Source of the DNA: Thermococcus sp. SY098 | GTDB taxonomy: Archaea > Methanobacteriota_B > Thermococci > Thermococcales > Thermococcaceae | Assembly: GCF_035621495.1 (NCBI RefSeq) | Contig: NZ_CP141821.1 | Span: 1,454,760-1,518,759 of the forward strand | DNA length: 64,000 bases | Direction: 5' to 3' | In this document: piece after piece, positions 2,229-63,010 of the stretch | Numbering within the stretch: the stretch's first letter is position 1 | How the letters are laid out: each line of letters opens with the position of its first letter | Made by a program: the position numbers and the translations under genes | Notes under the pieces: model-generated | Databases searched by the model: none | What the model saw: the letters and a program-made list of their open reading frames with translations, nothing else | What the model was told of the DNA's origin: nothing

Positions 2229-2238
2229 TTAAAACACC

Positions 2239-3567: not shown

Positions 3568-3602
3568 TAATGGACACCTCTTCGAAATTGTTCATCGATG
3601 TA

Positions 3603-3777: not shown

Positions 3778-3815
3778 TATAAAAATCATCTGTCATATTG
3801 TATACTAAAAGTAAA
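3778..3815 (+). promoter_or_regulatory. treT promoter with TrmB-like operator
   Basis: A TATA box TATAAAAA (3778-3785) is followed about 16 nt later by TATACTAAAAGTAAA (3801-3815). The operator covers the expected transcription start. The 15-mer is identical to the one before the divergent transporter operon, so both directions should answer to the same repressor. Confidence 0.7.
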
Positions 3816-3828
3816 AATGGTGGTAATA

Positions 3829-5070: not shown

Positions 5071-5075
5071 TGAAA

Positions 5076-6095
5076 ATGGAGATAAGCGAAAAGGTCCTTA
5101 CAATGCTTACCAGGCTTGGCTTTACAAAGTATGAAGTCTTAACTTATTGGGCACTGTTAGTTTATGGTCCAAGCACAGCAAAAGAAATATCTGAGAGGAG
5201 TGGTGTGCCATATAACAGGGTATATGACACCATAGCTTCACTAAAAACAAGAGGCTTTGTAAGTGAAATTGAGAGTTCTCCAAGAGTCTATGTTGCGTTC
5301 TCTCCTTCAATAGCCTTCCTCAAGTTTAAGAAAGAAGTGGAAGACATAAAGCGGCAACTTGAAGAGGAGCTCAAGAAGATCAAAGTCAAGGAAGAAGAGA
5401 GGCCGGGGATATGGAGAACCAAAGACCTGGATGAAGCGGTAGAAATGGTTAAAGAATCACTTGATGCCTCACAATATGAGGTTATCCTCGTGGCACCTGA
5501 AAAATTCTTTGAGAAGATTGAGAACAATATAAAACAAGCATTGAGAAGAGGGGTTACAGTGTGTTTATATACTGAAGAAAAAATAGATTTGGTAGATTTT
5601 ATCGAGATTGGAAATTTGTTTGTTAGAAAATTTCACAAATTGAACCACTTTATTGGAATGTTTGATGGTAGGGAAGTCATTGATATTCAGAACATAGGCT
5701 TTAGACCCAGGAATCCTCCAAGCTTTAAGGCAACCTATCCGGAAATTATATTTTCTCAGTACAGCTTTATCAGAGAAGCATTTAAAGAATCAAAGCTGAT
5801 ACTTGAAGATATAAACCGGAAGAACGATCTGAGATTCTTTACCACTTTCCATGCTGTAGATGTTATAAGAAGACACCTGAATGACAGCAACATTTATGCT
5901 GAGATAATTGCAAAAAATTTGAGCACGGGTGAGATTGAGCAGCTCAGAGGAAGGGTTGTTGGATACACAGTGGCAATGGAGGAGGGAATTGATAATTTTG
6001 ACTTGGAGACAGAAAAGGGCATTTTCAAAATTGGTGGAATGTTTGCAGTCTTAGAGGATTATGAAACTACAAAGATTAGGCTTATATTAACCTGA
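5076..6095 (+). CDS. trmB: TrmB family sugar-responsive transcriptional regulator
   Basis: TrmB represses the maltose/trehalose transporter genes and is released by the sugar. Residues 1-75 form a winged HTH (ISEKVLTMLTRLGFTKYEVL, then PYNRVYDTIASLKTRGF). A short coiled linker and a C-terminal sugar-binding region follow, including PSFKATYPEIIFSQYS and GGMFAVLEDYE, both strongly TrmB-like. The length (339 aa) fits the family. The gene is coupled to treT through TGATG. ATG at 5070 is an alternative start; 5076 gives the MEIS... N-terminus expected from known TrmB and has GTGAT just upstream. Confidence 0.92.
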   Translation: MEISEKVLTMLTRLGFTKYEVLTYWALLVYGPSTAKEISERSGVPYNRVYDTIASLKTRGFVSEIESSPRVYVAFSPSIAFLKFKKEVEDIKRQLEEELKKIKVKEEERPGIWRTKDLDEAVEMVKESLDASQYEVILVAPEKFFEKIENNIKQALRRGVTVCLYTEEKIDLVDFIEIGNLFVRKFHKLNHFIGMFDGREVIDIQNIGFRPRNPPSFKATYPEIIFSQYSFIREAFKESKLILEDINRKNDLRFFTTFHAVDVIRRHLNDSNIYAEIIAKNLSTGEIEQLRGRVVGYTVAMEEGIDNFDLETEKGIFKIGGMFAVLEDYETTKIRLILT

Positions 6096-6105
6096 GGTGG
6101 TTGGA

Positions 6106-32225: not shown

Positions 32226-35200
32226 ATGAGGAGGACATTGAGTATCATATTAATAACTTTGATATTAGGCTTGAGCTTCAGTGCTGCAGTAAATCAAAGC
32301 TTTGTGCTGGCAAGCACTCAGGATGATAAAGCTTACGAAGACTTCTGGAATATTCTGAACAAGGAAGCTGAGTTAATTGTTGAGCTTAACTCAAGCACTG
32401 ATGCTAATGAGATTCAAAGTTTGGCATTACAATTGATCCAAAATTCCCAGAATGGTTCCTCTAACGCAGCTCAAATTTCTGCATTAATCTGGCAGAGTTT
32501 GGAGGAATTGAAGAATTCTGGAGTTAAGACTTATTATACAGCAGAGGAATTAAGACAAATGGCTCAGAATATTTCTCAAAACGGCTTGCCACAGGAAACA
32601 GTGCAAGTGTTAAAGGAGCAAGGCTGGAGTGATAATGAGATACAAGCATTGCAAGAGTACATTGCTCGAAATGCTGATAGTATTAATGAAGACTTCAATC
32701 TAACAAAATTCCTCAAGGACTTTAGCCAAGCATTCATACAGGTAGCATTCAAATACAATCACTATGAAGCATGGGCAATAGAAAAATGGAAGTGGAAGAA
32801 TCCAGAGGATGGGATTGCTTCTCAAGGAGAGGCCATGATAAATCCACTCTTAGCAGATGAGTGGATAGACTTCTACAAAGCGTACTACAACGGAACCTTG
32901 GAAGAACAACTAACTTCACTGAACAAGCTCCAAAGTAAAGTGTACTCACTAATAACGGGCTCTTTGGCTGATAAAGAGGAGAGTTTGATTCTTTCTCCAA
33001 AGCCTATACATCAGCCTGTAGAAGAAAGTACCACATCAATTCTTCTCCCCATTAAAACATCCCAAGTCAAGAACATTAAATACTTAACTGACGATGCATT
33101 AGAGTTTGAGACTTGGGAGTTTATCGGGCAAAAAAGTGAAAATAAGGAAGGATGCACGTATCTTTACAACAAGTACAATGTTACCCATTACTACTGGGAG
33201 TCCCCTCTTAAGGCTTATAAACTTGTTAGAGAGATTCACTCTCTGCTTTTAGCAAAACAGTTTGGAAACAAGGACATCGAATTGGAATGGCAGTTAAATG
33301 AAAAAATAAGCAAGTTGAAAGATGCTCTAATTGTTATACATGAAGAAAATACAATAACACTCGTGCCAGTGTCCAAAAGCTGTACCTACCCAATAGTTAA
33401 GTTGCCCAAGCTGCCAGCATCACCAGTATTAACCTCCACATCAACACCAGTAACATCAATCGAAGACATGACTCAAGAACAGACGGTACAGCTGGATGAG
33501 TTAGCATTAAGGGCTTTGAGCATTGGTGATGAAACTGAACTTCAAGTTGCTGGGGAGATTATTGTAGAATCAGTTACACCTTCAGAGGTTGAGTACAAAG
33601 TAAAGGTCACTGTAAAGGCTGAAAATGCTCAGGCAACAAACATCAACATTTATATCGATGGGAACAAGGAATACGGACCGTTTGACTTAGGAGCTGGGGA
33701 AAGCAGAGCAATAACTTTACCTGTAGGGAGTTACTTTACTGAGGACATTCCAAGCAATGCTCAGGAGATAACGCTCAGCAAAACCATAAAAGTCACCTAC
33801 ACAAAATGGTGCAACAATATAAACAGTGTCCCCGGTGGAGAGGAAGTTTTAAGCGCTCCAGCAGGCTGCGGTGAGGAGGCAATGGTTATAAAAACGGTCT
33901 CAAAAACAATTCAGCTGTTCGATGCTCAAGTTTCCGTTTCAAAGGCTATTGTGAAAGTTAATGAACCAGTAGAGTTCACCTTCACGATAACCAATTACAT
34001 GACGAGTAGTAAAACGTTCAATCTGCTGGTTACTGCTGGCGGGAAATCTAAAGAGGATACACTCACAGTTCCAGCTGGCGAAACTAAAACCAAGACTTTG
34101 CAGTTAACTTTCAATACACCAGGCGAAAGAACATACTACGCAAAGGTTGATGGGACAACATATGCAGTGGGGACGATAAAGGTGGAAGATGATGACAGCA
34201 GCACAGACTCCGGCAACTTAACAATCGAAAGCGTTGAACTTTATCCAAATCCACCGAGAGTTGGTGACACTGCAGAATTTAGGGTCAAAGTTAAGAACAC
34301 TTACAGCTCATCTAAGAGTTTCACGCTAAAGTTAAAAGTTAATGGTTCTGAAGTTTATAGTGAGTCTGTTTCATTGAATGGTGGAAAGAGTGCAACGTTT
34401 AAGCTTTACTGGACTCCGGAAAAAGTGGGGAGATATGTGTGGGGAATTATGATTTCGGTGTCTTGGGGGACTGCGTCTTACAGGGAGGGCACTGTAAATG
34501 TGGTTTCAGCAAATGCTCAGTTTGGTGTTAGTTTGGAGGCAATGCCAGTAGAGCTTGTGGGTGGTGGAACAGTGTACTTTACAGTTAAAGTTCTTAATTA
34601 CGTGAATAGTGCGTATTCAATTAGGGGTTATGTTGTGGGTAAGGATGGGAATAAAGTCTATCCTGAAGATGGAGAATACTTTGAGGCAAGATTACCGGCT
34701 GGTGGTAATTATACAGCATACTTTGATTTACCAGTATCAGGCATTGGAAATCACACTTACATGCTTTATGTGGACAATTACGGTGGTGAAAGCCATACCG
34801 ACAGTGTAAAAATAGAAGTAAAACAAGGAAACGGAGAACTACAACAAGTGTACTTTGTATGCAATGACCTAGAGTTCAACTGGAATGGCCTAGAATACAA
34901 AGCCAAATTGACTTGTAAAGCAGGATTATACAATCCTACTGACCAGTCTATAGAGATAAACGTAATTAGCATTAAAAATTGGGATGTGGACAATTATGCT
35001 CTTAGGGAGTCAATAGACAACCCATGGATTGTAAGTTACTCAAATATAATCAATCCTCATGCTGCATATGAAGTTATCTTCAAGAATACTGCCAGAACAA
35101 CCTTTACAACACTAGAAAGGGATTTATTGGGAACGTATTCACTAATCTCTATGAATTATATTATCTCTCCAAAAGAGGGTAGTGATATCGAATTTACAGG

Positions 35201-44674: not shown

Positions 44675-45713
44675 GTGGGGGTTACGGTTTCGGTGTCTTG
44701 GGGAACTGCGTCTTACAGGGAGGGCACTGTAAATGTGGTTTCAGCAAATGCTCAGTTTGGTGTTAGTTTGGAGGCAATGCCAGTAGAGCTTGTGGGTGGT
44801 GGAACAGTGTACTTTACAGTTAAAGCTTCGAATTATTTGGGCAATGCTTATTCAGTGTTTGGTTATGTTGTGGATGAGGATGGTGCAGTGATCAAGAGGG
44901 TTAGTGCAACATTACCAGCGAGTGTTCAGGATTACACTTTAACTTCATTCAGCCTGCAAGTTTCCGACGTTGGAAATCACACTTACAAACTCTTCCTCGA
45001 CAACGCTGATGGCAAGCCTAACGGAGTAAGCGAAGAACACTGGAACGAAGTGAGGGCAATAGTGAAGCCAGTGGGGAACGTTATTGCAACCATGGATTGT
45101 AACCCGTCAATAGTTCCGCTAGATGATTCAACTACTTGTACTGTCCACATTGAGTTAAAGAGTGCCGATACGGTCATGTTGAACTTAAAGGAGGTTGACT
45201 TCGGAGGTAAGAAAATATGGCCCAACGGGCCAAGCAGCGTTACAGTTAACAAGCAAACAGTAACCCTAACCCCAACAAACATGCAGGAGGGCCTAACGAT
45301 AACAATCACAATAAACGACGAGCTAGCGAACTACTACTTTAAGAAGGAACCACTTGGATGGGGATCATATAGTGACAGACTTGTAGGGTACTCCTACCTT
45401 GTCAGAGCTGTCTTTAGTGATGGCATTGTGACCAGTGATATAAATTGGAATAACCGATAAATCTTCCTCGCTTGGTGAGAAAGTTGAGACAGCAGTAGAA
45501 GTAGCAGGTATTGCTCAATCTGTGCTCGAGAAAGCAGCTGAACATATGGGACAACTGGAGACCGTGGCCAGTGGATCTTTAGGAAAAGCGGCAGTAGTGG
45601 GATCAAAAGTAGTTGGGATTGTTGGTTGGCTTTTGACTGCTAGAGATGTTTACAATTGGATAACGGCACCAACACCCTCCGATGAAGATAACAACAATGT
45701 GATTGGAGGATGA
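44675..45713 (+). pseudogene. Silent effector module 9 with a frameshift, starting in the 138-bp repeat
   Basis: The first frame (44675-45460) starts inside the Ig-like domain at VGVTVSVSWGTASYREG, almost identical to the full effector over 138 bp, then diverges (SNYLGNAYSVFGYVVDEDGA). The Cys pair is MDCNPSIVPLDDSTTCTV (12 between), then INDELANYYFKKEPLG. After DIN (about 45443) the other frame takes over: GITDKSSSLGEKVETAVEVA, Gly/Val-rich VVGSKVVGIVGWLLTA and tail APTPSDEDNNNVIGG. No signal peptide or true start is present. Confidence 0.75.
44688..44825 (+). repeat. 138-bp direct repeat, copy 2, at the head of silent module 9
   Basis: It is the downstream copy of 34453-34590 with one mismatch at 44704. 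Homologous recombination between the copies would be in frame, would delete 10,235 bp and would join the effector N-terminus to module 9. Gene conversion could instead transfer the module. Confidence 0.95.
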
Positions 45714-50626: not shown

Positions 50627-50719
50627 CCTTGCTGAGTAAACTTTATTTGTTCTTAACCTTATTTTTGGAAAAAGCTTATTTATTTTAGAGAGACATTACT
50701 ATGTTAGGGGTGCTGGACG

Positions 50720-52975
50720 ATGGAGAAACGTGCATTATCACTTATGTTGGTCATTTTCATTATAACTTCCTACGGGCTTGTGGGAGCAAAGCCAATCTTA
50801 GACGGTTCTGTTGAGTTTTTAACAAAAACAAAGAATCTGGCTAATACAACCCAAGAGATAGGCTTGGTGTTACTCGCACTAACATCTGCACAGGGGAAAG
50901 TGGATTATGATCTCATTGAAAACATAACGTACATTGCCAATCTACTGGTCTCATGGCAGAATCCCGATGGTGGGTGGGGGTATTTCAAAGGTAGTGTGAG
51001 TAATGTTGTTGATACCTCCTATGCGGTTATCGCACTGAGTAAGGTGCTCCATCTTTATGAGAAAGGTACTCCCGAATATTCAAAAATCTTCCACGCACTT
51101 GATGATGGCATTTCATTTCTGCTGAGTTCTTATTCAGGCAGCGGTTGGGGGTATGTTCCTAAGACAGAACCAGAGTTTTATCCGACAGTCATGGCAATTT
51201 GGGCTTTGGGGGAGAATGGCTTTGGGGTGGATCATCCCTACATCAAAAGATCTCTCAGCTACATAGCTAATGTGAAGGAATATGGTATTGATAGGTATAA
51301 AGCGTTGGCTTTGGAGTTGTTAGCTTTTAAGAGCGTGGGAAAAGACGTTGATACAAACCTGGTAGGGGAGATAAAGAAGGCACTTGAATCAGGGAACCTA
51401 AGTGTAAGTGACAGGGCTCTGCTTACCTATGCTCTTGTGGATTATGAAGATGTTAACTTTGATGTCGCTAAAGCGCTCTTAATTTTGGAATCTCTAAAGA
51501 AAGGACAGTCCACATTCTACTGGAGTGATGAACCAAAACTGTTTTCTCAGGCACATCTGTTTGAAGCTTCCTCCTATGCAGTGCTGAGTTTTGCATTAAT
51601 AAGTGACAAGCTGAGCCAGGGGTTGGAAAATCCCTTTAAAACTTCCTGTGAGGCTTTGAAAAATGCTCAAAATCCTGATGGTGGCTGGAGCTATTATTAT
51701 GGTTTTCCATCTAATGAGAAGGCAACATACTATACACTAAAAGCTCTTAAATTATGCTATTTTAGAGATCCAAGCATTGAAAAAGGATTGAAGTGGGTAA
51801 GGGTAAAATACGAAGAAGACAAGTTAATTGCCAAGAAGAACAATGAAATATATTCGCCCTATGTTTATGCCCTTTTGACGCTCCTTGAATTTAACATGCT
51901 GAATGAAACAGAAAAAGAGGAAAACATTAAACTTATAGAAAGTATTCAGCTTGATACAGGAAAGTGGGGGAACTTTTTGGGTCCTCAGCCTTATGATACT
52001 GCCTTGGCAATTAAAGCGCTCCTTGCCCTTGGGGTTCCATCGAATAGTACCGAAATTCAAAGAGCAAAGAACTGGCTGCTTTCTATCTCAAAGACAGGAT
52101 GGGGAACTTACGTAGATACTGGATTTTACTCCTACATGCTCCCACCTGAGGTTTCTGTTACACTTGAAGTCCTTGAAGCTTTGGCACCAATTTCAACAAA
52201 AGACGAGCTGGAGCCTCATCTCAAATGGCTCCTTGAGCAGAGAACAGAAGATGGGGGATGGGCAAATATAAAGGAACACTACTTGATTGGAGTATTCCAG
52301 TATAAAGAAAAGCCAACAATTGAGCTCACAATAAGAGCTGCAGAACTATTAGCAGAATTTGGGTATGATTACCGAGAGGATGTTCTGAATTGGCTTATGG
52401 ATAAAAAGCACGGCGGTCTATGGGGAGATACAATTGTTGATTCTGCATTAGCCACACAATTCCTCTCCCAGTTTAAGTTTATACCCAAGATTAACCTCTA
52501 TGATGTGATAAGACTAATCCCAGAGCAGAAGTTTTATGTGGTTTACACCGATGATAGGAACTTAACGGCACAACAAATAAAAGCGTCTATCGACAAACTT
52601 TTCGAAACCAACACGACTGTTGAAAAGTTCCAAGGATTTGGAGATGCAAACTACATAGTGCTATCGGACTTCGGGGAGTTTAACATCAAGGATTATAACC
52701 CCTATGTGAAGCTTGAAGTGGACAATGAAACAATTCACATCAATGGAGAAGAATACAGCATTAAGAATACAGTTGTATTGATTCCAGGAAAGACCGAAAC
52801 GGGCTACATACTCTTTGTTTTCTATGAAAAAGGTCTTGATGATGTTGTAGCCAAGATATTTGATTCCGGTTTGGTGAAGTACCTCAAAGGCGATGCATTG
52901 GTTGTGACATATAAGGACAAGAACCATGATGGTGTTGTTGATTTAGATGAGCTGACTGTGAAGTTCTTGAGGTGA
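50720..52975 (+). CDS. Secreted protein with terpenoid-cyclase/prenyltransferase repeats and a terminal EF-hand loop
   Basis: This 751-aa protein has signal peptide ALSLMLVIFIITSYGLVGAK. The mature part is an alpha/alpha toroid: repeated Gly-Trp motifs include NPDGGWGYFKG, SGWGYV, NPDGGWSYYYG, DTGKWGNFLGP, TGWGTY and EDGGWANIKE, about seven in residues 75-590. A smaller alpha/beta domain follows, and the extreme C-terminus has DKNHDGVVDLDE (733-744), a canonical calcium loop. Such folds occur in squalene cyclases, complement C3/alpha-macroglobulin and pectate lyases. Extracellular location argues against a lipid cyclase. Function is unknown. Confidence 0.72.
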   Translation: MEKRALSLMLVIFIITSYGLVGAKPILDGSVEFLTKTKNLANTTQEIGLVLLALTSAQGKVDYDLIENITYIANLLVSWQNPDGGWGYFKGSVSNVVDTSYAVIALSKVLHLYEKGTPEYSKIFHALDDGISFLLSSYSGSGWGYVPKTEPEFYPTVMAIWALGENGFGVDHPYIKRSLSYIANVKEYGIDRYKALALELLAFKSVGKDVDTNLVGEIKKALESGNLSVSDRALLTYALVDYEDVNFDVAKALLILESLKKGQSTFYWSDEPKLFSQAHLFEASSYAVLSFALISDKLSQGLENPFKTSCEALKNAQNPDGGWSYYYGFPSNEKATYYTLKALKLCYFRDPSIEKGLKWVRVKYEEDKLIAKKNNEIYSPYVYALLTLLEFNMLNETEKEENIKLIESIQLDTGKWGNFLGPQPYDTALAIKALLALGVPSNSTEIQRAKNWLLSISKTGWGTYVDTGFYSYMLPPEVSVTLEVLEALAPISTKDELEPHLKWLLEQRTEDGGWANIKEHYLIGVFQYKEKPTIELTIRAAELLAEFGYDYREDVLNWLMDKKHGGLWGDTIVDSALATQFLSQFKFIPKINLYDVIRLIPEQKFYVVYTDDRNLTAQQIKASIDKLFETNTTVEKFQGFGDANYIVLSDFGEFNIKDYNPYVKLEVDNETIHINGEEYSIKNTVVLIPGKTETGYILFVFYEKGLDDVVAKIFDSGLVKYLKGDALVVTYKDKNHDGVVDLDELTVKFLR

Positions 52976-52982
52976 TTAAATC

Positions 52983-54077
52983 GTGAGGGCTTTAATAATA
53001 GGGATTGGGCAGTGTGGGACTAAGATAGCGGACTTGTTTGCATTAGTTGACTTTGAGGCTATAGCGATAAACACATCGAAAAGTGATCTGGAATACCTGA
53101 AACATATTCCCCAAGAGCGCAGGATACTCATTGGGGAAAGCCTAACTGGGGGGAAAGGTGTAAATGCGAATCCAGTATTGGGCAGGGAAGCCATGAAGCG
53201 GGACTTATCTTTGGTCATGAGAAAGATGAATTCAGTAATCGGATATGAGGATGTTGACATATTCTTCTTAACATTTGGCTTTGGAGGAGGCACTGGAGCA
53301 GGAGGGACCCCAGTTTTAGCTGAAGCTCTCAAGGAGGAATACCCGGACTCCCTTGTTGTGGCTATAGGTGCATTGCCTCTGAAAGAAGAGGGGATAAGAC
53401 CAACTATAAATGCAGCAATAACAATTGACAAGCTCTCAAAGTTTGCCGATTCAATAATTGCAATAGATAACAACAAGCTAAAAGAGACGGGGATGGGCAT
53501 AAGTAGGGCATATGAAAAGATAAACTATACAATAGTCGAGCGCATCGCCTCACTTTTGGCTTTAATTGATGTTCCTGGTGAGCAGACACTGGATGCAAGT
53601 GATTTGAAATTTGTACTTAAAGCCTTTGGTAGCTTTGCTACAGTTGGCTATGCAAAAGCAGAAGCGAATAAAGTCAAAAATCTCTCCCGTTTAATCCTCA
53701 AATCTTTTGAGAATGAGGGCCTTTACCTTGATGCAAACATAGAGTCTGCTCTATATGGATTGGTAGCAATTCATGGACCACCAGAACTTTTGAAAGCAAA
53801 TGAGATATTCGAGGCATTGGATTATCTCGCTCAGAAAATTAAAGGAAAGCAGATATTCAGAGGATTTTATCCTGATCCGAGAGAAAGGGAGGTCGAGGTA
53901 GTAACCCTTCTTAGCGGGATATATGAAAGTAGGAGCATAGAGAATATTATTTTGACAGCTAAGCGTTATGCTCAGTCTTTTATTAAGGCAAAAGAAGAAG
54001 CAGAAGTGAGGAAAAGAGAGCTTTTATCTGGTTTACCAGATTTTGATGACCTTTATCCTGGTGAGATAAATGAGTGA
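52983..54077 (+). CDS. FtsZ/CetZ-family tubulin-like GTPase
   Basis: This 364-aa cytoskeletal GTPase starts at GTG 52983 (GAGGTGATTAAATC before it): MRALIIGIGQCGTKIADLFA. The tubulin signature is FGFGGGTGAGGTPVLAEAL. It resembles the CetZ/FtsZ3-type branch more than canonical FtsZ because the N-terminus begins directly at the nucleotide-binding strand and there is no C-terminal FtsZ tail. CetZ proteins affect cell shape and motility in Haloarchaea. It sits between a secreted toroid protein and a pilin-like operon and overlaps the next gene by 8 nt. Confidence 0.82.
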   Translation: MRALIIGIGQCGTKIADLFALVDFEAIAINTSKSDLEYLKHIPQERRILIGESLTGGKGVNANPVLGREAMKRDLSLVMRKMNSVIGYEDVDIFFLTFGFGGGTGAGGTPVLAEALKEEYPDSLVVAIGALPLKEEGIRPTINAAITIDKLSKFADSIIAIDNNKLKETGMGISRAYEKINYTIVERIASLLALIDVPGEQTLDASDLKFVLKAFGSFATVGYAKAEANKVKNLSRLILKSFENEGLYLDANIESALYGLVAIHGPPELLKANEIFEALDYLAQKIKGKQIFRGFYPDPREREVEVVTLLSGIYESRSIENIILTAKRYAQSFIKAKEEAEVRKRELLSGLPDFDDLYPGEINE

Positions 54078-54702
54078 TGTAGTAAAAGATTCAGTTGAGG
54101 TCGCACTTGAACTTAATGAAAGGGAAGTTTACTCCCACATAGCCCACGAAAGTGCCGAGGATATCATCAGGATAATATCATCTCTTGATGCAGAGAGAGC
54201 TAAAAACAGGGGTGAGGTCATCTATTATCAAGATGATTGGGACGACTTAATTAGGCAGAGAATACAAAAAGGAAAGCGCCACACAGCTTTTGATTTCTAC
54301 AATCCAGCTTTGTTAAATATTTGGGAAGCTAAGGTAAAATATCTGAAAAAAGTCAAAAACTATGTAAAATTAGCAATGTTGGGCATATTGGTGTTTCTGG
54401 TAGCAACAATAATTTTATCTTTCTTTTTTGACACCCCATGGTTTTTAGTTGGAGTTAGTGCTCTTCCGCTGGTAATATTCTTCCATTCATATAGGAAAGA
54501 AAAACTTGACTTTACATATTATCAACTTACGCAGTTCTTCATAGATGAGCTTAGGGAGCTTGTTCTTAAACATCAGTTAGATAGCACAAGGTACAAGTTT
54601 AAAATATTCAGCTATGATTATTTTGGAATTCTGACAAGGAAAATAGGTTCAAGTATCTTTGCAATAGTCAAAACTGGGGAGAATATGACCAATACTGAAT
54701 GA
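54070..54702 (+). CDS. Membrane protein with two central helices
   Basis: This 210-aa protein has a soluble N-terminal half (residues 1-95) and two membrane helices (about 98-142; LAMLGILVFLVATIILSFFF and WFLVGVSALPLVIFF), then a soluble tail. I do not recognise the family. The coupled start inside the GTPase gene suggests that the two act together, perhaps anchoring the GTPase at the membrane (inference). Confidence 0.65.
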   Translation: MSDVVKDSVEVALELNEREVYSHIAHESAEDIIRIISSLDAERAKNRGEVIYYQDDWDDLIRQRIQKGKRHTAFDFYNPALLNIWEAKVKYLKKVKNYVKLAMLGILVFLVATIILSFFFDTPWFLVGVSALPLVIFFHSYRKEKLDFTYYQLTQFFIDELRELVLKHQLDSTRYKFKIFSYDYFGILTRKIGSSIFAIVKTGENMTNTE

Positions 54703-54753
54703 AAATTGTTAAATACTGCTTTAGAACCTAAAATAATAGTGGGAGTGGAAAAT

Positions 54754-55365
54754 ATGAAGAAGGCGCAGATTTCATTGGAGTTCATGTTGATATTTGGTAT
54801 ACTGCTTATCCTGCTGGCGTATTCCATTAATAATATAACTTTCAGTCAGAAGTCACAGTCAAATGAATTACTTCGTGTTCAGGTTAGCTTGGAAGCCAAA
54901 AGCCTCGCAAATTCAATTTCAAACACAATTTCTCAAGTTTATGCTCAGGGGCCAGGTTCCAAGGCAACCTCTTACATCACTCTGAGATACCTCAGGGATG
55001 AAAATTACCTGAAAAAATCATTTAATCTAAGTGGAAATCCGGAGATATTTATAACGTATCTCAACGGAACCTATGTTGGGATAATTGATACTGCTAATAA
55101 TAGCCTTGTAACGAGTGGGGCTGGAAAAAACACTTTCTGGAGCCAGTCATTATATAAGACTGATCTTATGGGGGGTACGGGCTTTACTCCGAGTGGAACT
55201 GCTATCTATAATGGAAACACAGTTAATGGCATTTTAATTGCAAATCCAGCTCAGCTTCCAACGACTCTTGTAATTATTGTTGAGTGGATTCCAAGAAATG
55301 GAAACACTTGGGTGCTTGATATAACAGCCGGTGAGCTTAGAATAAACATAGATCCTGGTGGGTGA
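54754..55365 (+). CDS. Pilin-like protein with class III signal peptide
   Basis: This 203-aa exported protein has MKKAQISLEFMLIFGILLIL, a class III (type IV pilin/archaellin) signal with the QISLEF core, followed by a long hydrophobic helix and an extracellular beta-rich domain. The ATG at 54754 follows GGGAGTGG; TTAAATACTG at about 54709 may be its own TATA element. It is the first of several pilin-like genes on this strand. Confidence 0.75.
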   Translation: MKKAQISLEFMLIFGILLILLAYSINNITFSQKSQSNELLRVQVSLEAKSLANSISNTISQVYAQGPGSKATSYITLRYLRDENYLKKSFNLSGNPEIFITYLNGTYVGIIDTANNSLVTSGAGKNTFWSQSLYKTDLMGGTGFTPSGTAIYNGNTVNGILIANPAQLPTTLVIIVEWIPRNGNTWVLDITAGELRINIDPGG

Positions 55366-55367
55366 AA

Positions 55368-55800
55368 ATGAAAAAAGGCCAGCTGAGTCTTGATCTCCTC
55401 TTTGCGGTCTTGCTGATAATAGTAACTTTGACAAACCTTACATATATGGCTACCAGTGAAATCAGTCATGCTGAAAGCTTTGATACCTTCACAAAGGTTA
55501 GGCTATTCTCCTCTACGTTGGTAGATCATAGTGCAAAGGTTTATGCGATCGGAGAGGGTTATAAGGTGAGGGAAGTTGCTCCAGACTTAAATGGTGGGAC
55601 AATTAGGGTTGTTTTTGATGGTGCAACAAAATAAAATAATAGTAAACGCAACTGTTAATGGAAGGAGTTTCTGGATTGTTAAAAATTCTACAGTGCCGTT
55701 GTCCACATCCAGTGTGAACTTAACCAGCAGTGAAGAATTCTGGATTACTGCTTATTACAACACAACTGAAGGGATGCTCTATGTTAAGGTCGAAAAATAA
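55368..55800 (+). pseudogene. Pilin-like gene with an apparent frameshift
   Basis: The start MKKGQLSLDLLFAVLLIIVT is a class III-like signal and the frame runs to RVVFDGATK with a stop at 55632-55634. In the +1 frame the sequence continues as KIIVNATVNGRSFWIVKNST up to 55800 and ends YVKVEK. Removing T55632 in ACAAAATAAAATAAT joins the two halves into a 143-aa pilin-like protein. The cause could be a real mutation, a sequencing error in an A-rich run, or programmed frameshifting. The next gene starts inside its end. Confidence 0.68.
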
Positions 55801-56251
55801 AGCCCAAACTGCCCTTGAGATGATGTTTATTGCGAGTATAATACTGATTGGAATTGCATTAGTTGTTCCATCTTATTTTGAGGAGAATAGGGATATGACA
55901 ATTGTCTCTTACGTTAGAGCTTCAGCTTCTCGTGCATGTGATTATTTAAATATGGGCGTGTTAACAGATGATCCGAGATACTCACCTTTGAATTCTGCTC
56001 TTGAAACATTGAATGGGCTTAATCCAAATTTAAGAGTTCTTAGAATTGAAACTTCACAAACTAATAATACTATAACGATTACCGTTGTCTTAACGACCCC
56101 CTACTCTGCTATAAATAATGAGACCTTGGCATCCGCAGTTGAGAACTTTATAGTGAGAGACTTAAATATGACAACAAACTTAATTCTCTCAAATGGGACA
56201 TTGTTTTATGGGGATACTGCAGTGAATATTGCTGTGAGGGTAGAGGGATGA
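55781..56251 (+). CDS. Pilin-like protein with class III signal peptide
   Basis: This 156-aa protein starts MLRSKNKAQTALEMMFIASI, a class III-like signal (KAQTALE) and a hydrophobic helix, then an extracellular Asn/Thr-rich domain (TNNTITITVVLTTPYSAINN). The ATG at 55781 overlaps the preceding gene by 20 nt. It overlaps the next gene by 4 nt. Confidence 0.72.
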   Translation: MLRSKNKAQTALEMMFIASIILIGIALVVPSYFEENRDMTIVSYVRASASRACDYLNMGVLTDDPRYSPLNSALETLNGLNPNLRVLRIETSQTNNTITITVVLTTPYSAINNETLASAVENFIVRDLNMTTNLILSNGTLFYGDTAVNIAVRVEG

Positions 56252-57645
56252 GGAGAGGTCAGCTCCTATCCATAGATGCACTGCTTTCACTTGTAATTGT
56301 CGTTATGGTCGTTGGGGTAGTTATAAATACAAATGATATGATAAAAGCTGAAATCACGAATTTGGTTGAATGGTATGACAGAGCAAACATTGCTAATAAC
56401 ATGCTGGATATCCTGACAAAAAGTCCGGGGTATCCTAAGGATTGGGATATCACTAATACCCCAATTAGGGTTCTTGGTTTAGTTTCTCCCAATTATCCTC
56501 CGTCTCTGGCTTATAACAAAATATTGGGGCTTAAAGAAAGAATTCAAGATGGAGATCCATCAGTTATAGATAGCTTAAGAAATCTAAGCTCTGGAAAAGA
56601 TTTTATGTTTGAGATATATCTCAGAAAATATTCAATTAGCACAAGTGGATTTCCAATCACTGGGATATATATTATTGTTGGAGCACCGAATAACAATGTT
56701 AATTTTAGGCTTTCAGATAGTGGAAATTCGCCTTTTGATGTTGTTTGTGGTTCTGTAACACTTAATGGAGAACCTCTCTCATCATCTGCTGGAAACATCC
56801 TACTCGATTTAACTCCTGGTGACGTTGTTGAATTTATACCTCTTGAAACAGTTTATGTATATTCCAGAGGGAGTCTTTTAGGAACAATTCCTCCCAACGC
56901 GGTTGTAACTGTTGAGGTTATTGATGTGGGATCAAACCTACAGTTAAGATACAATGCAGCAACATGCCAGCTTCAGTTCACTGGAATTGGAAGGGTTTAT
57001 GTTCAAGTTAAGGCTTATGCTCCTCAAGATGTCAACTTAACATATGATTTTACTCCCGTTTCCAATGTAACAGAACCATCCCTTAGAATAATTATGATAA
57101 ATGGTACAATTTATGCTCCAAACGGCACTCTGTATACATATAATGATGCCCTGAGTTCGATGAATAATTCTCAATGGGTTGAAGTCGCAGAAAGATCACT
57201 ATCAATGGTGAAGAAGATTTATAAAAGCAACCTAACATTAACTTCAGTTTTCAGTGGAGTGGAACCCATAATAATAGGAAAATTGAAGCTTGAAATACCC
57301 AACTATGCCTATTTGAACGTGACGTTGATAGGTACTGAGGCGAATGCATCATTTTTGGCTGTAAATGGAGATTCTGTTGTTGGTATATTTGCATATAAAT
57401 CCGGAAACATAACTGAAGCTGTAATTGTCGAGAACGGCACAATAGTGAAGAAATATTCTGGCTTAAAGGGAAATGTTATGATACCATTGAAGGATATCTT
57501 TCCGGAGGTTAACATAGCGGAGCTTTACATAACATCTTTTGAAGGAACTGAACTTTTTATCAATATTACTTGGAACTTGGGAGTTATACTGGAGCCAAGG
57601 GTAGAGTCATGTAGACTAAAGCTTTGGGTGTGGGATGAGAAATGA
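56248..57645 (+). CDS. Large surface protein with pilin-like N-terminus
   Basis: This 465-aa protein begins MRRGQLLSIDALLSLVIVVM, a class III-like signal followed by one membrane helix. The rest is extracellular, beta-rich, with many potential N-glycosylation sites. It is much larger than a pilin. It is coupled by ATGA to both neighbours, so it is part of one polycistron. It is likely a filament tip or assembly component (inference). Confidence 0.68.
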   Translation: MRRGQLLSIDALLSLVIVVMVVGVVINTNDMIKAEITNLVEWYDRANIANNMLDILTKSPGYPKDWDITNTPIRVLGLVSPNYPPSLAYNKILGLKERIQDGDPSVIDSLRNLSSGKDFMFEIYLRKYSISTSGFPITGIYIIVGAPNNNVNFRLSDSGNSPFDVVCGSVTLNGEPLSSSAGNILLDLTPGDVVEFIPLETVYVYSRGSLLGTIPPNAVVTVEVIDVGSNLQLRYNAATCQLQFTGIGRVYVQVKAYAPQDVNLTYDFTPVSNVTEPSLRIIMINGTIYAPNGTLYTYNDALSSMNNSQWVEVAERSLSMVKKIYKSNLTLTSVFSGVEPIIIGKLKLEIPNYAYLNVTLIGTEANASFLAVNGDSVVGIFAYKSGNITEAVIVENGTIVKKYSGLKGNVMIPLKDIFPEVNIAELYITSFEGTELFINITWNLGVILEPRVESCRLKLWVWDEK

Positions 57646-59738
57646 GAAGGCGGGGATTTGTATTAACATTGGATGCCTTACTGTCACTGCTTTTGATAAT
57701 GATATTTGTGTCCACGGTAGCTGTCATAGAGAATAATGTCGGTACATACACGACGTATATGAGAGAGCAAGAAAAGTACATAGCGGAGGATACACTAACC
57801 CTTTTAAGAAGTACCAGTTTAAAAGAACTCGTACCTCCACAAAAAATCCAAGAATGGCTTGCTGACGGGACTCTGAATACCACCCTTGTTTCTCCAGATA
57901 TGTCACCGCTGGATATTGTATCGACATATTGGGCAACTGAACTTATATATCCCTCTGCAAATCTAAGACATAAAGCTGAGATAATTTTAGGGTATGTTCT
58001 CAACAGAACTTTGAGGGGATATAACTATGAGCTTATGATAAACAACTATACGAGCCCATATTTGAGAAAAACTGGGAGTAACTCCTCAAGGGTCCCAAAC
58101 ATATCTCCTGCTACCCTTATTTTAAGCGGCTATGCTTACAATCAGACTCCGAGAGGGTATATGGCAAGGGCGTACCTGACAAAGGCTACATACAGAAGGC
58201 AGGAAATAATTGGCATACAAAGGGTTTTGGCGTACTGTGGAGTATCTAACACGTTTAGAGTGGAAGCTCCAATTCGTTTGCCTGATGATGCTTCGATTAA
58301 TAATGCAGACATTAGACTGGTTGCAAGGACTTCTGCTCAATATTCCTACTTCGAGCTAAATAATGTGACACTCCCATTGGGAACTTCTGACATAACTAAT
58401 ATCTTACACGGGGGATTAAACGTTTTGGAAGCCACCTTTACACCGGCATCTTGGTATTGTTACGAAATGGGATTCGGAAGCGGTTCAACTCTCTTTGCAG
58501 ATTATACAACAAATAGTCTAAGTGTAGAAGATCCCGCCACGAGATATGGTGAGTTATATCAGCTTGAGAGTGACAGAACGGGAATCTACTATTTAAATGC
58601 TCTTTTCGTACCAGGGAACATAACGGAGATAAATATTCACTTGGAAACTGAGGGAGTAAGAGATATAAGGATTTATTATAGCTATGGGTCATATCACTAT
58701 GAGCTTGTTCACAAAACTGTTCCCACCACAGGCAGGCAGATAGTTGATATAACAAACTCTGAAATCGTGTCTGCCTTAGCATCTTATGGATTTACATATG
58801 AGAATCTGAGTAGAACCTATTTCAAGCTGATAATAGCGCTTGACTCTTGGTGGGATGAATCTCAAAGGAGATTTGTGTACGACACTACTCCCAGGAGAAG
58901 AATACTCTATGGATATGGAGCTTCCAGAATAGAGATTAAGTACATTCCACGGGTTCTGGTAACTCAATATTCGATACCTCTGTCAATTTTTATTGATTAT
59001 AATGACATTACATACAACGGGCCATGCTATGGCGTTAGATGTGCCGAGATGACATTTGATTATACTCTTCCAGAAAATGCGAAACCATGGTACGTGGATA
59101 TATGGACTGCTATTCAGTTTACAACATTTACTCCAGACGCTACCATGACGCTTTCTGAAAATGGTTATACGTTCTACGACTATTACCCAGACATATATTT
59201 GATAAGGGTAGCATACACCCGATTAACTGACACCATGATGGTTCCTGGCCGTACAAATACATTCAGGGCATACAGTACCGATGCTTATCAGTTTGGATTC
59301 AGAGAGGGAGAAAGTAGGGGGGTTGTTAACTATTTCATAGAAGGATATGCTGGTTATGGGGATGTATTTCCCCAGCTTCTCCAAGGATATCCCCGATATA
59401 AAGGATATAACCTCACATATTGGTATTATGATGGTTCAAGTACTTATCAGCGACAAATATTGATCGGAGACCCTCCTTATAAGCCGATTACAGTTGATGA
59501 TCTGGATCCTGAAAGGTATGCTGTTGACGATGCGATACTAAGGCTTTTCAATAATCTCAACTATATCAACGATGTAAATCCAGATGACTGGAAAACACCC
59601 CCATACGATGGATCTCAAAATAATCCGATAGATGTGGACTTACCTGAGGGTGTTAAGATAGCATTTGCCTCGATGGGAGAGATACCCGGGCTATTCAAAC
59701 CTATCACAATAACCCTAAGAGTATGGAGGGAGCAATAA
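57642..59738 (+). CDS. Large surface protein with pilin-like N-terminus
   Basis: This 698-aa protein begins MRRRGFVLTLDALLSLLLIM, like its neighbour, with one N-terminal membrane helix. The extracellular part is rich in Tyr, Thr, Ser and Asn and looks like stacked beta domains. I see no known enzymatic motif. Its stop overlaps the next ATG (TAATG). Confidence 0.66.
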   Translation: MRRRGFVLTLDALLSLLLIMIFVSTVAVIENNVGTYTTYMREQEKYIAEDTLTLLRSTSLKELVPPQKIQEWLADGTLNTTLVSPDMSPLDIVSTYWATELIYPSANLRHKAEIILGYVLNRTLRGYNYELMINNYTSPYLRKTGSNSSRVPNISPATLILSGYAYNQTPRGYMARAYLTKATYRRQEIIGIQRVLAYCGVSNTFRVEAPIRLPDDASINNADIRLVARTSAQYSYFELNNVTLPLGTSDITNILHGGLNVLEATFTPASWYCYEMGFGSGSTLFADYTTNSLSVEDPATRYGELYQLESDRTGIYYLNALFVPGNITEINIHLETEGVRDIRIYYSYGSYHYELVHKTVPTTGRQIVDITNSEIVSALASYGFTYENLSRTYFKLIIALDSWWDESQRRFVYDTTPRRRILYGYGASRIEIKYIPRVLVTQYSIPLSIFIDYNDITYNGPCYGVRCAEMTFDYTLPENAKPWYVDIWTAIQFTTFTPDATMTLSENGYTFYDYYPDIYLIRVAYTRLTDTMMVPGRTNTFRAYSTDAYQFGFREGESRGVVNYFIEGYAGYGDVFPQLLQGYPRYKGYNLTYWYYDGSSTYQRQILIGDPPYKPITVDDLDPERYAVDDAILRLFNNLNYINDVNPDDWKTPPYDGSQNNPIDVDLPEGVKIAFASMGEIPGLFKPITITLRVWREQ

Positions 59739-62236
59739 TGAAGAGGAGAGGTTTTTTCTTAAATTCTGCAGTCCTCTTGCTTCTGATACCCTTGCTTCTG
59801 CTTTTAGCTACTTATGAGGATGTTTCCTCTCAAGTTATTCAAGCTCAGAGTGTAAGAACCCAAGCCGAAAGAACGTATAGAGTTGCCTCTTTTTTGGAGT
59901 TAGATTTTCAAAAAGCTCTGGAAATTTCTGGAAAAAGGGCAATTATCACGATCATTGATTATGTATCTGTGACAGGAAACTTTGTTTCTCCAACTTATAT
60001 GGTAAACAATACGATAAGGGATTTAATTCTTGAGGGCACATCTCCAAGTTTAATTGGCTACGATCCAAATAGAGTTATGAGGGGACAGAGTCTTAGAAGA
60101 TGGCTCCTCAACATCAGTGCTGATTTAAGGGATCAGGGATTTAACATCAGCCCCTCTATTGATGAAATACTGAACTCTATGGAGATTACAGTTGCTCCTT
60201 TGGACTCCTTCAGGGTAGTTATAAAAGCCAGGATACCCAACATAACAATACGGGATGTCTCAGGCAGGATAGTTTATACCGGAGCGATCCCAAGTAATGG
60301 AGGTTATATTTATTCAATAGTTGATATTCAGAATCTTGAAGATCCTATATTTTCTGCAATGACTGGTGGTAGATATTACAGATCAATTAGGGCATGTCCA
60401 TATTCTTTTCCAGAGCTTTTAGATAAGCCAATTAAAGTTTTAGAGGGGAATGGTAGCAGTACAGTCAATCCTTTTGTGGAAGAGTTTTCAAGAACGGTTG
60501 ATCCAGATAGAATATACTTTGGAGATTATTATCCCGGAACAGGAGCAGCGGCATATGTTTTGTTAAATGATCCAGAACAGAATGTCACCGAACCTATTGT
60601 TTTTAACACCACATTAAATGGAAGAAGAACTTCTCCCTTAGAGGTTTTCAATGAAGGAGATATGGGCGTGTTGGTCTTTGGAAATGTAAGCGGAGCGGGT
60701 GGAACAGGAACAGCCACAGGTTGGTGTTCTATTCTTAATTATCGGCTTAACCTTACAATTCAAAACAATGTGGGAGTAGATCTTGTTGACTATCAAATAC
60801 CTCTTCTGTTGAGCACCTCGAAGGGATTTACATCCCAATTGCTTAATTTTATATTTACAAATACTCTCAATACATATGGAGGGGATCCCTACAACACAAA
60901 TGCTTCAATTGCGATATATGACACAAATTGCAATCCTATCCCATTTTGGATTGAATATTGGGATCCAGTCAGTGAAACTGCCCTCATATGGATACGTGCT
61001 TCTATTCCTGCTGGAGGTCAGTTGAAAATAGAGCTGTATTTTGGCAATGAAACATCACCAACAAAGGGAGATGGGGATAGTGTTTTTGAGTTTTTTGATG
61101 ACTTCAGTAGACCTTGGACCAACAAGTGGGTTGCAGTATCAAGAAATCAACCATATTCTCAGGCAAATGGAGAACTAACAATAAACGGTGGAAATAGCAT
61201 ATTTGCATTGAGAACCCAGCTGGCATTGGGATTGTATGGGGGATTTGCAGTTAGGTTTAGAATGAAAGCAGAGGGAGAATATGCAGACTGGGATGCGGGA
61301 ATTGGCGTACAAGATTACGATGGAAATGTTCTTTTGTTTACAGATGACACGACTAATAGTGGAGATGGATTGGCCATTCATAGACCTTGGTGGAATTTTG
61401 AATCTTACACAATAGGGAGGTATCCCATAAGTACGTATCATGTATACGAGGCATTATTGAAACCGTATCTTGTATATTACAAAGACGCCAAATTTAATGA
61501 TGTAACTGATTCCAGGTCCAATGACGACTTGGGGAGTAGGTACTGGGTGGAACCTTTAAACTATTTGTATCTTGTAATTGACAGTGAAAGAACTTGGAGA
61601 CGGGCAACTTATGACTTTATTGCAATTAGGAAGTATACCATTGATTCAACCCTTCTGGAAGATCCATTTAATGGCATAACTTTTTACTGGTCTACAACAT
61701 CTCTTGCGGACTTGGTGGAGACAAAACCCTCATCCACAACAACGGCTACAACAATATCAAGTGCAAGAGCATATGATGTCCAACCTTTTATAGACTGTAT
61801 TATGGATCAGCGATATTTTGGTATTTACAATGCCCCATCTTTCTTTGAAAGACTCGAGGGAAGCACAATTAATCATGCCGCATATGAAGCCTTAGCTCAC
61901 CAGCTACAGGATGAGCTTGGGGTTAAGTATGGGAGTCAGTATTACCCAATTGGATTAGTCAGTTTCATGATACCAGATCCTACATATGATCAGAAGCTCT
62001 TTGATCTCTTCAATACCCTGGGACTCTCTATAGAGGAAGGGCAAACGAGCTTTGACTATTATTTCCTCAAGTATTACTTCAAAGGAGGAGCAAAAGTAAC
62101 TGGTTATAGGATGTGGGGAGTTTCCCAAGGAGTTACTTCTCAGGGAGATTTTAGCAGTGTGCCATTTTTCATAGATAATCAAACAGCTGTAGCCATATTT
62201 GGAGTCCAGGGGGCTCAGGATTTACTTCAGAGGTGA
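59738..62236 (+). CDS. Large surface protein with pilin-like N-terminus and DUF2341 domain
   Basis: This 832-aa protein begins MKRRGFFLNSAVLLLLIPLL with one long helix and then an extracellular chain. A DUF2341 (concanavalin-like) domain is visible around residues 330-440: VDLVDYQIPLLLSTSKGFTS, AIYDTNCNPIPFWIEYWDP and IELYFGNETSPTKGDG, followed by a lamin-G/LamG-like part (FFDDFSRPWTNKWVA). These domains often bind glycans. The ATG at 59738 follows GGAGGGAG. It is the largest gene of the operon. Confidence 0.7.
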   Translation: MKRRGFFLNSAVLLLLIPLLLLLATYEDVSSQVIQAQSVRTQAERTYRVASFLELDFQKALEISGKRAIITIIDYVSVTGNFVSPTYMVNNTIRDLILEGTSPSLIGYDPNRVMRGQSLRRWLLNISADLRDQGFNISPSIDEILNSMEITVAPLDSFRVVIKARIPNITIRDVSGRIVYTGAIPSNGGYIYSIVDIQNLEDPIFSAMTGGRYYRSIRACPYSFPELLDKPIKVLEGNGSSTVNPFVEEFSRTVDPDRIYFGDYYPGTGAAAYVLLNDPEQNVTEPIVFNTTLNGRRTSPLEVFNEGDMGVLVFGNVSGAGGTGTATGWCSILNYRLNLTIQNNVGVDLVDYQIPLLLSTSKGFTSQLLNFIFTNTLNTYGGDPYNTNASIAIYDTNCNPIPFWIEYWDPVSETALIWIRASIPAGGQLKIELYFGNETSPTKGDGDSVFEFFDDFSRPWTNKWVAVSRNQPYSQANGELTINGGNSIFALRTQLALGLYGGFAVRFRMKAEGEYADWDAGIGVQDYDGNVLLFTDDTTNSGDGLAIHRPWWNFESYTIGRYPISTYHVYEALLKPYLVYYKDAKFNDVTDSRSNDDLGSRYWVEPLNYLYLVIDSERTWRRATYDFIAIRKYTIDSTLLEDPFNGITFYWSTTSLADLVETKPSSTTTATTISSARAYDVQPFIDCIMDQRYFGIYNAPSFFERLEGSTINHAAYEALAHQLQDELGVKYGSQYYPIGLVSFMIPDPTYDQKLFDLFNTLGLSIEEGQTSFDYYFLKYYFKGGAKVTGYRMWGVSQGVTSQGDFSSVPFFIDNQTAVAIFGVQGAQDLLQR

Positions 62237-62242
62237 AATCAA

Positions 62243-63010
62243 ATGAATCTTGAAGAGTTATTCTATAGAGTGGGCGAGTTTGTAGAATCAGCATGGGAAA
62301 AGATAAGAGACTTCATAAATCCAAAACCTCAAGAGGAGCCTCCAGCCTTTAAACTTTTGGGAAGAGTTGTAAAGAGGAAAGTTACAGTTCACGAATTGTT
62401 AGTTCTAAAACTTCAGTTGACTTTTCTGTTCTATCTGTTCTTAGCTCTGCTAATTGTGGTTTTTCTGCCAAATGAGTTATATTTAGTTATTTTGACGGTG
62501 GTATATTTTGTATATCTAAGAGCAATATTCCGCAAATATAGAGAGTTTTTTATTGAATATAAGCCGTATCAGGTATTTTATTATTCCATTAGCGTCATAG
62601 GATTCTTTGCATTTTTTGGGTATGTGCTTTTGAAGAGATTTTCTTTAGACATTCGTTATTCGTTGGGCTACCTTGTCTTTGTTTTTGTTGCAGTTCTAAT
62701 GTTTAGATTTTATTTCAAATCAAAATACGGCAGGGATTGGACCTATGGTGTTATAGAGGATATTAAAGAAAATGTTGTGAAAATTAGTGTTCATGATGAC
62801 ATCAGAGCAAACGTTAAGCCCGGAGAATACTGGGTTGATAAAGTACCTGATGTTGAAATCGGAAGAATTGTGAAAGTTTTAGTTGAGGAAAGGACATTTA
62901 GGGGAGCAGTACCAATAAAGATAATTGAAGTTTATTTAAGCGACCACCCTTCATCATCAAAAGCCTCAACAGAAGCAAAAGAAGACAGGGAAAGCAACAA
63001 AAGCTTGTAA
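62243..63010 (+). CDS. DUF2101 family membrane protein
   Basis: This 255-aa protein has an N-terminal amphipathic region and four to five membrane helices (about residues 52-160), then a soluble beta domain (IEDIKENVVKISVHDDI, EIGRIVKVLVEERTFRG). It is placed 6 bp after the large surface gene and is the last gene of the operon. It could be the membrane platform or a regulator for the surface proteins (inference). The 3' end overlaps a convergent gene by 79 bp. Confidence 0.7.
   Translation: MNLEELFYRVGEFVESAWEKIRDFINPKPQEEPPAFKLLGRVVKRKVTVHELLVLKLQLTFLFYLFLALLIVVFLPNELYLVILTVVYFVYLRAIFRKYREFFIEYKPYQVFYYSISVIGFFAFFGYVLLKRFSLDIRYSLGYLVFVFVAVLMFRFYFKSKYGRDWTYGVIEDIKENVVKISVHDDIRANVKPGEYWVDKVPDVEIGRIVKVLVEERTFRGAVPIKIIEVYLSDHPSSSKASTEAKEDRESNKSL

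Follow-up and report, generated by a model that had tools for sequence, protein, structure and literature searches.

Which role a tubulin-like GTPase of the CetZ type plays next to genes for an exported protein and a membrane protein is a question raised by a locus of Thermococcus sp. SY098, an archaeon of the family Thermococcaceae. The locus is contained in a stretch of 64,000 nucleotides (contig NZ_CP141821.1, positions 1,454,760 to 1,518,759 of the forward strand), hereafter termed the window, in a genome of 2.03 Mb assembled as a single contig. At its center is a triad composed of TOR, encoding a toroid protein, CETZ, encoding the GTPase, and MP, encoding a small membrane protein. An original prediction, made from the letters of the DNA, regarded the three genes as a unit in which the membrane protein would link an internal filament to an external protein, with a possible role in cell shape or the positioning of appendages. 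We find that, within the Thermococcales locus for clade 1 type IV pili, the triad is the module closest to the promoter; the GTPase and the 'squalene cyclase' are known parts of this locus.

The triad opens a conserved pilus locus

To compare the region across the family, we have mapped 61 loci, one of them in the window and the other 60 in stretches chosen from the 94 genomes of the family, mostly complete assemblies or long contigs, with 33 family genomes lying outside the mapping (loci and genomes carry labels starting with L and G, respectively). Orthologues in these loci were called with blastp at an E-value of 1e-3. CETZ, MP and the pilin-like genes P1, P2, P3 and P4 were each matched in all 61 loci, TOR in 59, P5 and P6 in 60 and the gene of a DUF2101 membrane protein in 59, with some of the matches to P4–P6 being partial. 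In one locus (L094), P5, P6 and the DUF2101 gene find no match because the contig ends before P5. The upstream neighbor TYW1 was matched in 53 of the 61 loci. Within the window, TOR and CETZ are separated by 7 nucleotides and CETZ and MP overlap by 8; across the family, the gap between TOR and CETZ has a median of 7 and a maximum of 24 nucleotides (59 loci), and the nearest in-frame start of MP overlaps CETZ in 54 of 61 cases. On the 3' side of MP, the run extends without change of strand through P1–P6 and the DUF2101 gene, which are separated by small gaps or overlap slightly.

Since the six pilin-like genes and the DUF2101 gene follow the triad in 59–61 of the 61 loci, we assign the region to the clade 1 type IV pilus locus described before. 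The view of TOR, CETZ and MP as a conserved unit is thus confirmed by an order that is kept across the Thermococcales, and the suspected link to an appendage is borne out by the six pilin-like genes directly downstream. With respect to its extent, the unit was correctly delineated as far as the triad is concerned, but drawn too short, as the run continues into the pilin-like and DUF2101 genes.

Pilin-like genes and pilus machinery

Among the pilin-like proteins, P1 alone exceeds the Pfam cut-off for class III signal peptides, whereas those of P2–P6 were judged by eye only (Table 1). The P2 gene is intact in L094–L097, where it encodes 145 residues compared to 90 in the window, with a one-nucleotide difference residing in a run of A; the frameshift is either an artefact of sequencing or a switch that operates by slippage. 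Proteins with a DUF2341 domain, as found in P6, have been proposed to act as tip adhesins (Makarova et al., 2016, PMC4858521; here and below, published work is cited from the accessible parts of each source). A custom hidden Markov model (HMM) detected this domain in 48 of the 61 loci, with the truncated L094 among the misses. Ten toroid-bearing loci (such as L106, L111, L118 and L127) encode a longer P5 of 811–876 residues and a mostly short P6 of 359–377 residues (720 in L135), and are devoid of DUF2341 according to the custom HMM. The large surface proteins P5 and P6 seem to be swapped between genomes. A coupling between the loss of the toroid protein and the loss of the DUF2341 adhesin was considered and rejected in light of these ten loci and of the close kinship of the two genomes that lack TOR.

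A PilB-type ATPase with a PF00437 match above cut-off is encoded at G000:C1:1384717, about 122 kb from CETZ, and is followed by two TadC-like membrane proteins that were recognized by eye; the group is located at L218, 3962–7844. The genome contains two further PF00437 matches, at 766188 above and at 627421 below the cut-off.

The GTPase and its C-terminal peptide

The family relationship of CETZ is reflected in its scores of 109.8 bits for Tubulin (PF00091, cut-off 33) and 57.5 bits for CetZ_C (PF21011, cut-off 21.6), with the FtsZ equivalog TIGR00065 reaching 128.8 bits and thus falling short of its cut-off of 295.2. When compared to the PDB, a CETZ profile retrieved 4b46 (E 3.7e-43), 4b45 (2e-34) and 3zid (2.3e-33), the last of which we take to be a CetZ structure, while the best FtsZ structure scored at 2.6e-26. 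The entries 4b46 and 4b45 are CetZ1 and CetZ2, respectively (PMC9856176). There are three PF00091 matches in the genome, namely CETZ and two FtsZ-like proteins. In a segment that we take to be the T7 loop, both genomic FtsZs contain the asparagine characteristic of FtsZ (NLDFAD and NIDFAD), which is replaced in CETZ (TLDASD) and in 4b46 (VVDSSE).

Across 88 full-length family matches, including the window, identity to the window protein ranges from 81 to 100%, and one further CETZ, which is split over two contigs (G056), shows 83–85%. The FtsZ encoded at G000:C1:1868486 is 79–100% identical in 93 of the 94 family genomes (E 1e-100), and CETZ is thus about as conserved as FtsZ, a degree of constraint that suits a polymer with many contacts. 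The motif GLPDF[DE]D[ILV]Y is found close to the C-terminus of CETZ in all 61 loci, followed by a variable tail of 5–33 residues. Column conservation in 37 sequences amounts to 0.93 for the peptide, 0.80 for the preceding linker and 0.47 for the following tail. Judged from its sequence, this arrangement of a linker, an invariant peptide and a variable tail is that of a binding peptide.

Topology and conservation of the membrane protein

The AlphaFold2 model of MP (with a mean predicted local distance difference test score, pLDDT, of 79.8) contains two long helices that are able to span the membrane (residues 79–120 and 133–167, block-wise pLDDT 80–95). The turn between them leaves about 12 residues (about 121–132) on the outside. 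The earlier description of MP as a two-helix protein is thus supported by the model but not by plain hydropathy, which finds a single segment in the window protein. In the window MP, the hairpin is flanked by regions containing Lys and Arg (KVKYLKKVKNYVK before and HSYRKEK after). According to the positive-inside rule, such flanks lie on the cytoplasmic side, which would place both ends inside, and the model thus describes MP as a helical hairpin with probably both ends in the cytoplasm.

In an alignment of 37 MPs, column conservation is highest for residues 7–96 (0.87) and drops to 0.39 in residues 97–121 (the first transmembrane helix) and to 0.51 in the turn (residues 122–132), with a value of 0.64 for residues 151–203. 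The sequence KGKRHTAFDFYNP is present in the MP of 60 of the 61 loci. As the most conserved part of the protein would face the cytoplasm, as does CETZ, this pattern argues against a link to TOR through the membrane and in favor of MP as the tether or receptor of a partner in the cytoplasm. The proposal that MP bridges the filament to an external TOR is thus unlikely in its original form, given the short segment exposed to the outside, the cytoplasmic location of the conserved region and the absence of TOR from two genomes that retain CETZ, MP and the pilins.

No Pfam or NCBIfam family matches the window MP above cut-off, and weak matches of the 37 aligned MPs are limited to three families, each in one or two members (best E 0.0013). 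In Pfam searches for SepF, no match was found for the window MP at an E-value of 0.1, nor for the 37 aligned MPs at 0.05. A Foldseek search of the PDB with the MP model remained empty at an E-value threshold of 0.001, and the best VIA-align score (Z 7.2), which extends over the long helices, is within the level that the tool itself regards as uninformative.

The toroid protein

TOR contains the squalene-hopene cyclase domains PF13249 and PF13243 above the Pfam cut-off and seven G(x)W motifs, in agreement with the about seven Gly-Trp repeats noted initially. A hydrophobic stretch at its N-terminus, which resembles a signal peptide, is present in all 59 orthologues, and its sequence thus suggests that TOR is probably secreted. 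In the AlphaFold2 model (mean pLDDT 90), residues 22–298 superimpose on the squalene-hopene cyclase 2sqc with a VIA-align Z-score of 28.4 and a root-mean-square deviation of 2.9 over 264 aligned residues, while the best Foldseek match has an E-value of 2.8e-6 and a low whole-model TM-score of 0.17. Several glycoside hydrolases reach a Z-score of about 20, as do complement-type toroids, which are not glycosidases. The probably exported protein is a double α/α-toroid followed by a C-terminal α/β domain and a terminal EF-hand-like loop. For the C-terminal domain of the window protein, we found no match above cut-off in Pfam, no PDB sequence at an E-value below 0.09 and no second genomic copy at E 0.1.

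DxDD is the catalytic motif of squalene-hopene cyclase. Such a string is absent from the window TOR and present in 3 of the 59 orthologues, where the copies in L096 and L097 are the DLDD of the C-terminal loop and the third is found in L141. The calcium-binding loop, which was described as an EF-hand, looks canonical in sequence, but an EF-hand domain does not emerge above the curated cut-off: Pfam EF-hand models match the window TOR with E-values of 0.03–0.06 (PF13202 at 14.2 bits, cut-off 25.9), and among 35 orthologues EF-hand_1 matches 12 at E-values of up to 0.5, the lowest being 0.0049, and EF-hand_5 matches 11 (best 7.5e-4). Since, in addition, a strict regular expression for the loop fits only 33 of 59 orthologues, the calcium loop is no fixed feature of TOR.

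TOR was found in 90 of the 94 family genomes, the exceptions being G020, G057, G062 and G073. In G020 and G073 (loci L142 and L145), TYW1 is directly followed by CETZ, and CETZ, MP and the pilin-like genes are kept; in these two cases the TOR gene is thus really gone. As both genomes are closely related, with MPs that are 90% identical, the loss probably occurred in a single event. The sequence of TOR diverges to an identity of 27–36% in the most distant genus that was mapped (eight loci). In our reading, TOR is dispensable and acts as a probably non-catalytic extracytoplasmic accessory.

Promoter-like elements

A regular expression combining a B recognition element with a TATA box (BRE/TATA) fits 44 of the 61 loci between −150 and +80 nucleotides of the first open reading frame start, compared to 0.27 expected from mononucleotide shuffles, and fails in the remaining 17. 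In the toroid-less pair, a promoter-like GAAAACTTTATGTA is located 78–81 nucleotides before the start of the CETZ open reading frame. The gap between MP and P1 contains the element TTAAATA in 57 of 61 loci (1.37 expected from mononucleotide shuffles), at a distance of 38–52 nucleotides from the start of P1 wherever this was measured (54 loci), just after or overlapping the region of the MP stop codon; the entire window contains seven copies per strand. Both patterns were written after viewing 20 of the 61 loci, and because of this post hoc definition, the use of mononucleotide shuffles and the relatedness of the loci, both counts are descriptive, with kinship inflating that of TTAAATA. With regard to the question of separate promoters, the integrity of the triad is unaffected, its genes being set apart by nothing more than short gaps or overlaps, but a division may exist between the triad and the pilin-like genes.

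The possibility that TTAAATA marks class III pilin genes throughout the genome was not borne out. The element is absent from the 90 nucleotides preceding the script-chosen starts, which may be wrong, of seven other PF04021 matches (L222, L224–L229), with TTAAATT found upstream in L227 and L228. A scan for sigma-70 sites, which is unsuited to archaea, yielded 41 sites compared to 38.1 in shuffles.

Distribution of the GTPase and the membrane protein

MP is found in 89 of the 94 family genomes, in three of them as a fragment, and matches at the level of CETZ occur in the same 89 genomes, while the other five contain only FtsZ-level matches. This co-occurrence is not due to chance. The five genomes without MP and CETZ are assemblies of 210–420 contigs. 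With CETZ as single query, the 88 full-length family proteins score at 650–779 bits and the family FtsZs at about 106–114 bits.

Among 115 genomes of the phylum, an MP profile yielded 89 strong matches, all within the family. The 21 genomes outside the family show no match in 18 cases and weak partial matches in three (E 4e-4 to 5e-3, residues 130–194), and with a CETZ profile yield only matches on the scale of FtsZ (best 95 bits). Scanning the GTDB contig collection with two conserved MP peptides identified 24 loci, all from Thermococci, in a search that distant relatives would escape. Two-helix membrane proteins from other families of the same class, encoded in L215 (6640–7380, minus strand) and L216 (6135–6836, minus strand), weakly resemble the C-terminal half of MP; the neighborhoods of their genes do not resemble a pilus locus.

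Features of the window

The coordinates of the described features are compiled in Table 1. Elsewhere in the window, a direct repeat of 207 nucleotides (34442–34648 and 44677–44883, 89% identical and 10.2 kb apart) is located in a run of genes for short secreted or membrane proteins (31.9–46 kb), genes that may represent shuffled fragments. The region 532–7584 encodes sugar ABC transporter components, a glycosyltransferase and a TrmB-like regulator, a set that resembles a known trehalose/maltose island.

Table 1. Positions of genes and sequence elements of the pilus locus, numbered from the first letter of the window.
Feature	Position	Strand	Remarks
Promoter region of unit, BRE/TATA-like GGAAAAAGCTTATTTA from 50667	50640-50719	+	53 nucleotides before TOR start
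TOR	50720-52975	+	751 residues; first gene of triad
EF-hand-like loop, TOR residues 733-744	52916-52951	+	canonical-looking calcium loop, from sequence
CETZ	52983-54077	+	364 residues; GTG start
Conserved C-terminal peptide, CETZ residues 347-358, LLSGLPDFDDLY	54021-54056	+	sequence conservation
MP	54070-54702	+	210 residues
MP-P1 gap with TTAAATA	54703-54753	+	probable internal promoter
P1, pilin-like, class III signal peptide	54754-55365	+	PF04021 31.6 bits, cut-off 23.7
P2, pilin-like, frameshifted	55362-55634	+	other frame runs on to 55800
P3, pilin-like	55778-56251	+	class III-like N-terminus by eye; sub-threshold PF04021 score of 13.4 bits
P4, large pilin-like	56248-57645	+	N-terminus by eye
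P5, large pilin-like	57642-59738	+	N-terminus by eye
P6, large surface protein (DUF2341 domain); candidate adhesin of the pilus tip	59723-62236	+	PF10102 76.5 bits, cut-off 23.4
DUF2101 membrane protein, last gene of run	62243-63010	+	PF09874 245 bits

Discussion

Starting from gene order, conservation, domain assignments, the topology model, co-occurrence and the loss of the toroid gene, we propose that CetZ together with a cytoplasm-facing tether, MP, constitutes a scaffold for the placement or assembly of the pilus, with TOR as exported, probably non-catalytic accessory, a reading to which we assign an even chance. In such a mechanism, CetZ would polymerize along the cytoplasmic side of the membrane, where the polymer would be held by the MP hairpin, whose conserved cytoplasmic part would be made in step with CetZ from overlapping genes and would perhaps grip the invariant C-terminal peptide of the GTPase. 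The tethered polymer could then mark or brace the site where a platform of the PilB-type ATPase and the two TadC-like proteins would assemble P1–P6, and the exported TOR might work on the outside of the membrane, as an α/α-barrel that belongs either to the pilus itself or to the route by which it crosses the S-layer. In a more specific version, which we offer tentatively and consider rather unlikely, MP would be a dedicated counterpart of SepF for CetZ, whose invariant cytoplasmic region binds the invariant GLPDF(D/E)D peptide, so that the tethered polymer would template the site of pilus assembly and a relative of tubulin would work as organizer of an appendage. The binding of MP to this peptide is an inference on our part.

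Several observations weigh against this proposal. The PilB and TadC genes are located away from the CETZ locus, and the element TTAAATA preceding P1 suggests a second promoter and thus a separate transcription of the pilin-like genes. In MP, residues 1–20 and about 51–80 are poorly modelled (block-wise pLDDT 48–67) where conservation is high, hydropathy alone, at the chosen threshold, detects one segment in 43 of the 61 proteins, the window included, and two in 18, and searches with Pfam, Foldseek and VIA-align have revealed no relative of known function. The structure 3zid carries a weaker version of the C-terminal peptide, NDLEEIY, at the aligned place, which weakens the idea that the peptide is confined to the MP-bearing family. 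An additional hydrophobic stretch past residue 90 is found in 11 of the 59 TOR orthologues. Finally, the conservation of CETZ equally fits a general role in the cell.

Such a general role is at the heart of another explanation, where CetZ and MP would form a morphogenetic or polar scaffold for cell shape or the placement of the archaellum or the polar cap, and the pilins would be a neighboring regulon with its own promoter. The FtsZ-like conservation of CETZ, the promoter-like element before P1, the effect of Haloferax CetZ1 on shape and archaellum position (PMC12186497) and the presence of protein complexes in the Pyrococcus polar cap that are described as unidentified (Daum et al., 2017, PMC5517150) are all compatible with this possibility. 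However, CETZ and MP neighbor pilin-like genes in all 61 loci, cetZ of Thermococcales is tied to pili in print (Brown and Duggin, 2023, PMC9856176), and the polar cap, at about 35 nm from the membrane, would be an odd place for a polymer bound to MP (PMC5517150), and we thus consider this possibility unlikely, if well worth keeping in mind. It appears distinctly less probable that the genes are transcribed together while being functionally unrelated, with an order that was inherited through the close kinship of the Thermococcales. All loci belong to one family, within which gene order is often kept by descent, yet order and close spacing persist where the identity of TOR has dropped to 27–36%, the run from TOR to P6 remains in 8 of 61 loci where TYW1 finds no match in the mapped stretch, and the toroid-less pair has kept a promoter-like element together with the remaining genes.

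In a further alternative, TOR would act as an enzyme on the lipids or sugars of the cell surface in the service of the pilus, be it as a terpenoid cyclase or as an α/α-barrel that works on glycans. Its squalene-cyclase domains and the strong structural similarity to squalene-hopene cyclase would fit, as would the similarity to glycoside hydrolases, which is at a level shared by complement-type toroids. The lack of DxDD in the window protein and in nearly all orthologues, two of the three exceptions being located in the C-terminal loop, the fast divergence of the sequence and its absence from two genomes render a catalytic function improbable.

If the proposed tethering is correct, removal of one small gene would free CetZ from the membrane and thereby reveal the job of the polymer. 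In the literature examined, as far as its accessible parts extend, we have found no settled account of how CetZ reaches the membrane. An organism with a single CetZ, whose gene is kept next to MP and pilin-like genes in 61 loci, would offer a clean setting to study a tubulin relative in the positioning of appendages.

Comparison with known systems

The locus can be compared with several described systems. In Haloferax, which encodes CetZ1 and CetZ2, the shared features are the CetZ domains and the type IV pilus regulon that adjoins cetZ2 in many Halobacteria (PMC9856176), whereas the Thermococcus genome contains one CetZ. The proposed role of MP would resemble that of SepF, the membrane anchor of archaeal FtsZ, which binds the C-terminal peptide of the latter (PMC8178401), in that a tubulin-like polymer is held at the membrane via such a peptide; unlike SepF, MP is an integral hairpin, and at the E-values applied it does not match the SepF family of Pfam. 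No relative of MP was found outside the Thermococci in scans that would miss distant ones, apart from the three weak partial matches, and in literature searches that covered the text of some of the papers retrieved, nothing pointed to MP as partner of CetZ. TOR shares the α/α-toroid fold and the QW-type repeats with squalene-hopene cyclase, from which it differs by its probable secretion, the lack of DxDD and an extra C-terminal domain with no match above cut-off.

The closest correspondence is found in the clade 1 pilus locus, which in most Thermococci includes a GTPase and a squalene cyclase (Makarova et al., 2016, PMC4858521), and in the cetZ regions analysed in Thermococcales, all of which (15 in a figure) are associated with pili, leading to the suggestion of a scaffolding function (Brown and Duggin, 2023, PMC9856176). 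Shared with our locus are the FtsZ-family GTPase arCOG02202 and the squalene cyclase arCOG03396 (PMC4858521, PMC9856176) as well as minor pilins, DUF2341 adhesins and additional membrane proteins, and compared with the accessible published text, we see no difference in gene content. Our analysis adds the hairpin topology of MP and its candidate role as tether, the TTAAATA element, the absence of TOR from two genomes and the location of PilB and TadC genes elsewhere in the genome. The association of CetZ, toroid protein and pilus is thus already published, and the idea of MP as tether is a testable addition.

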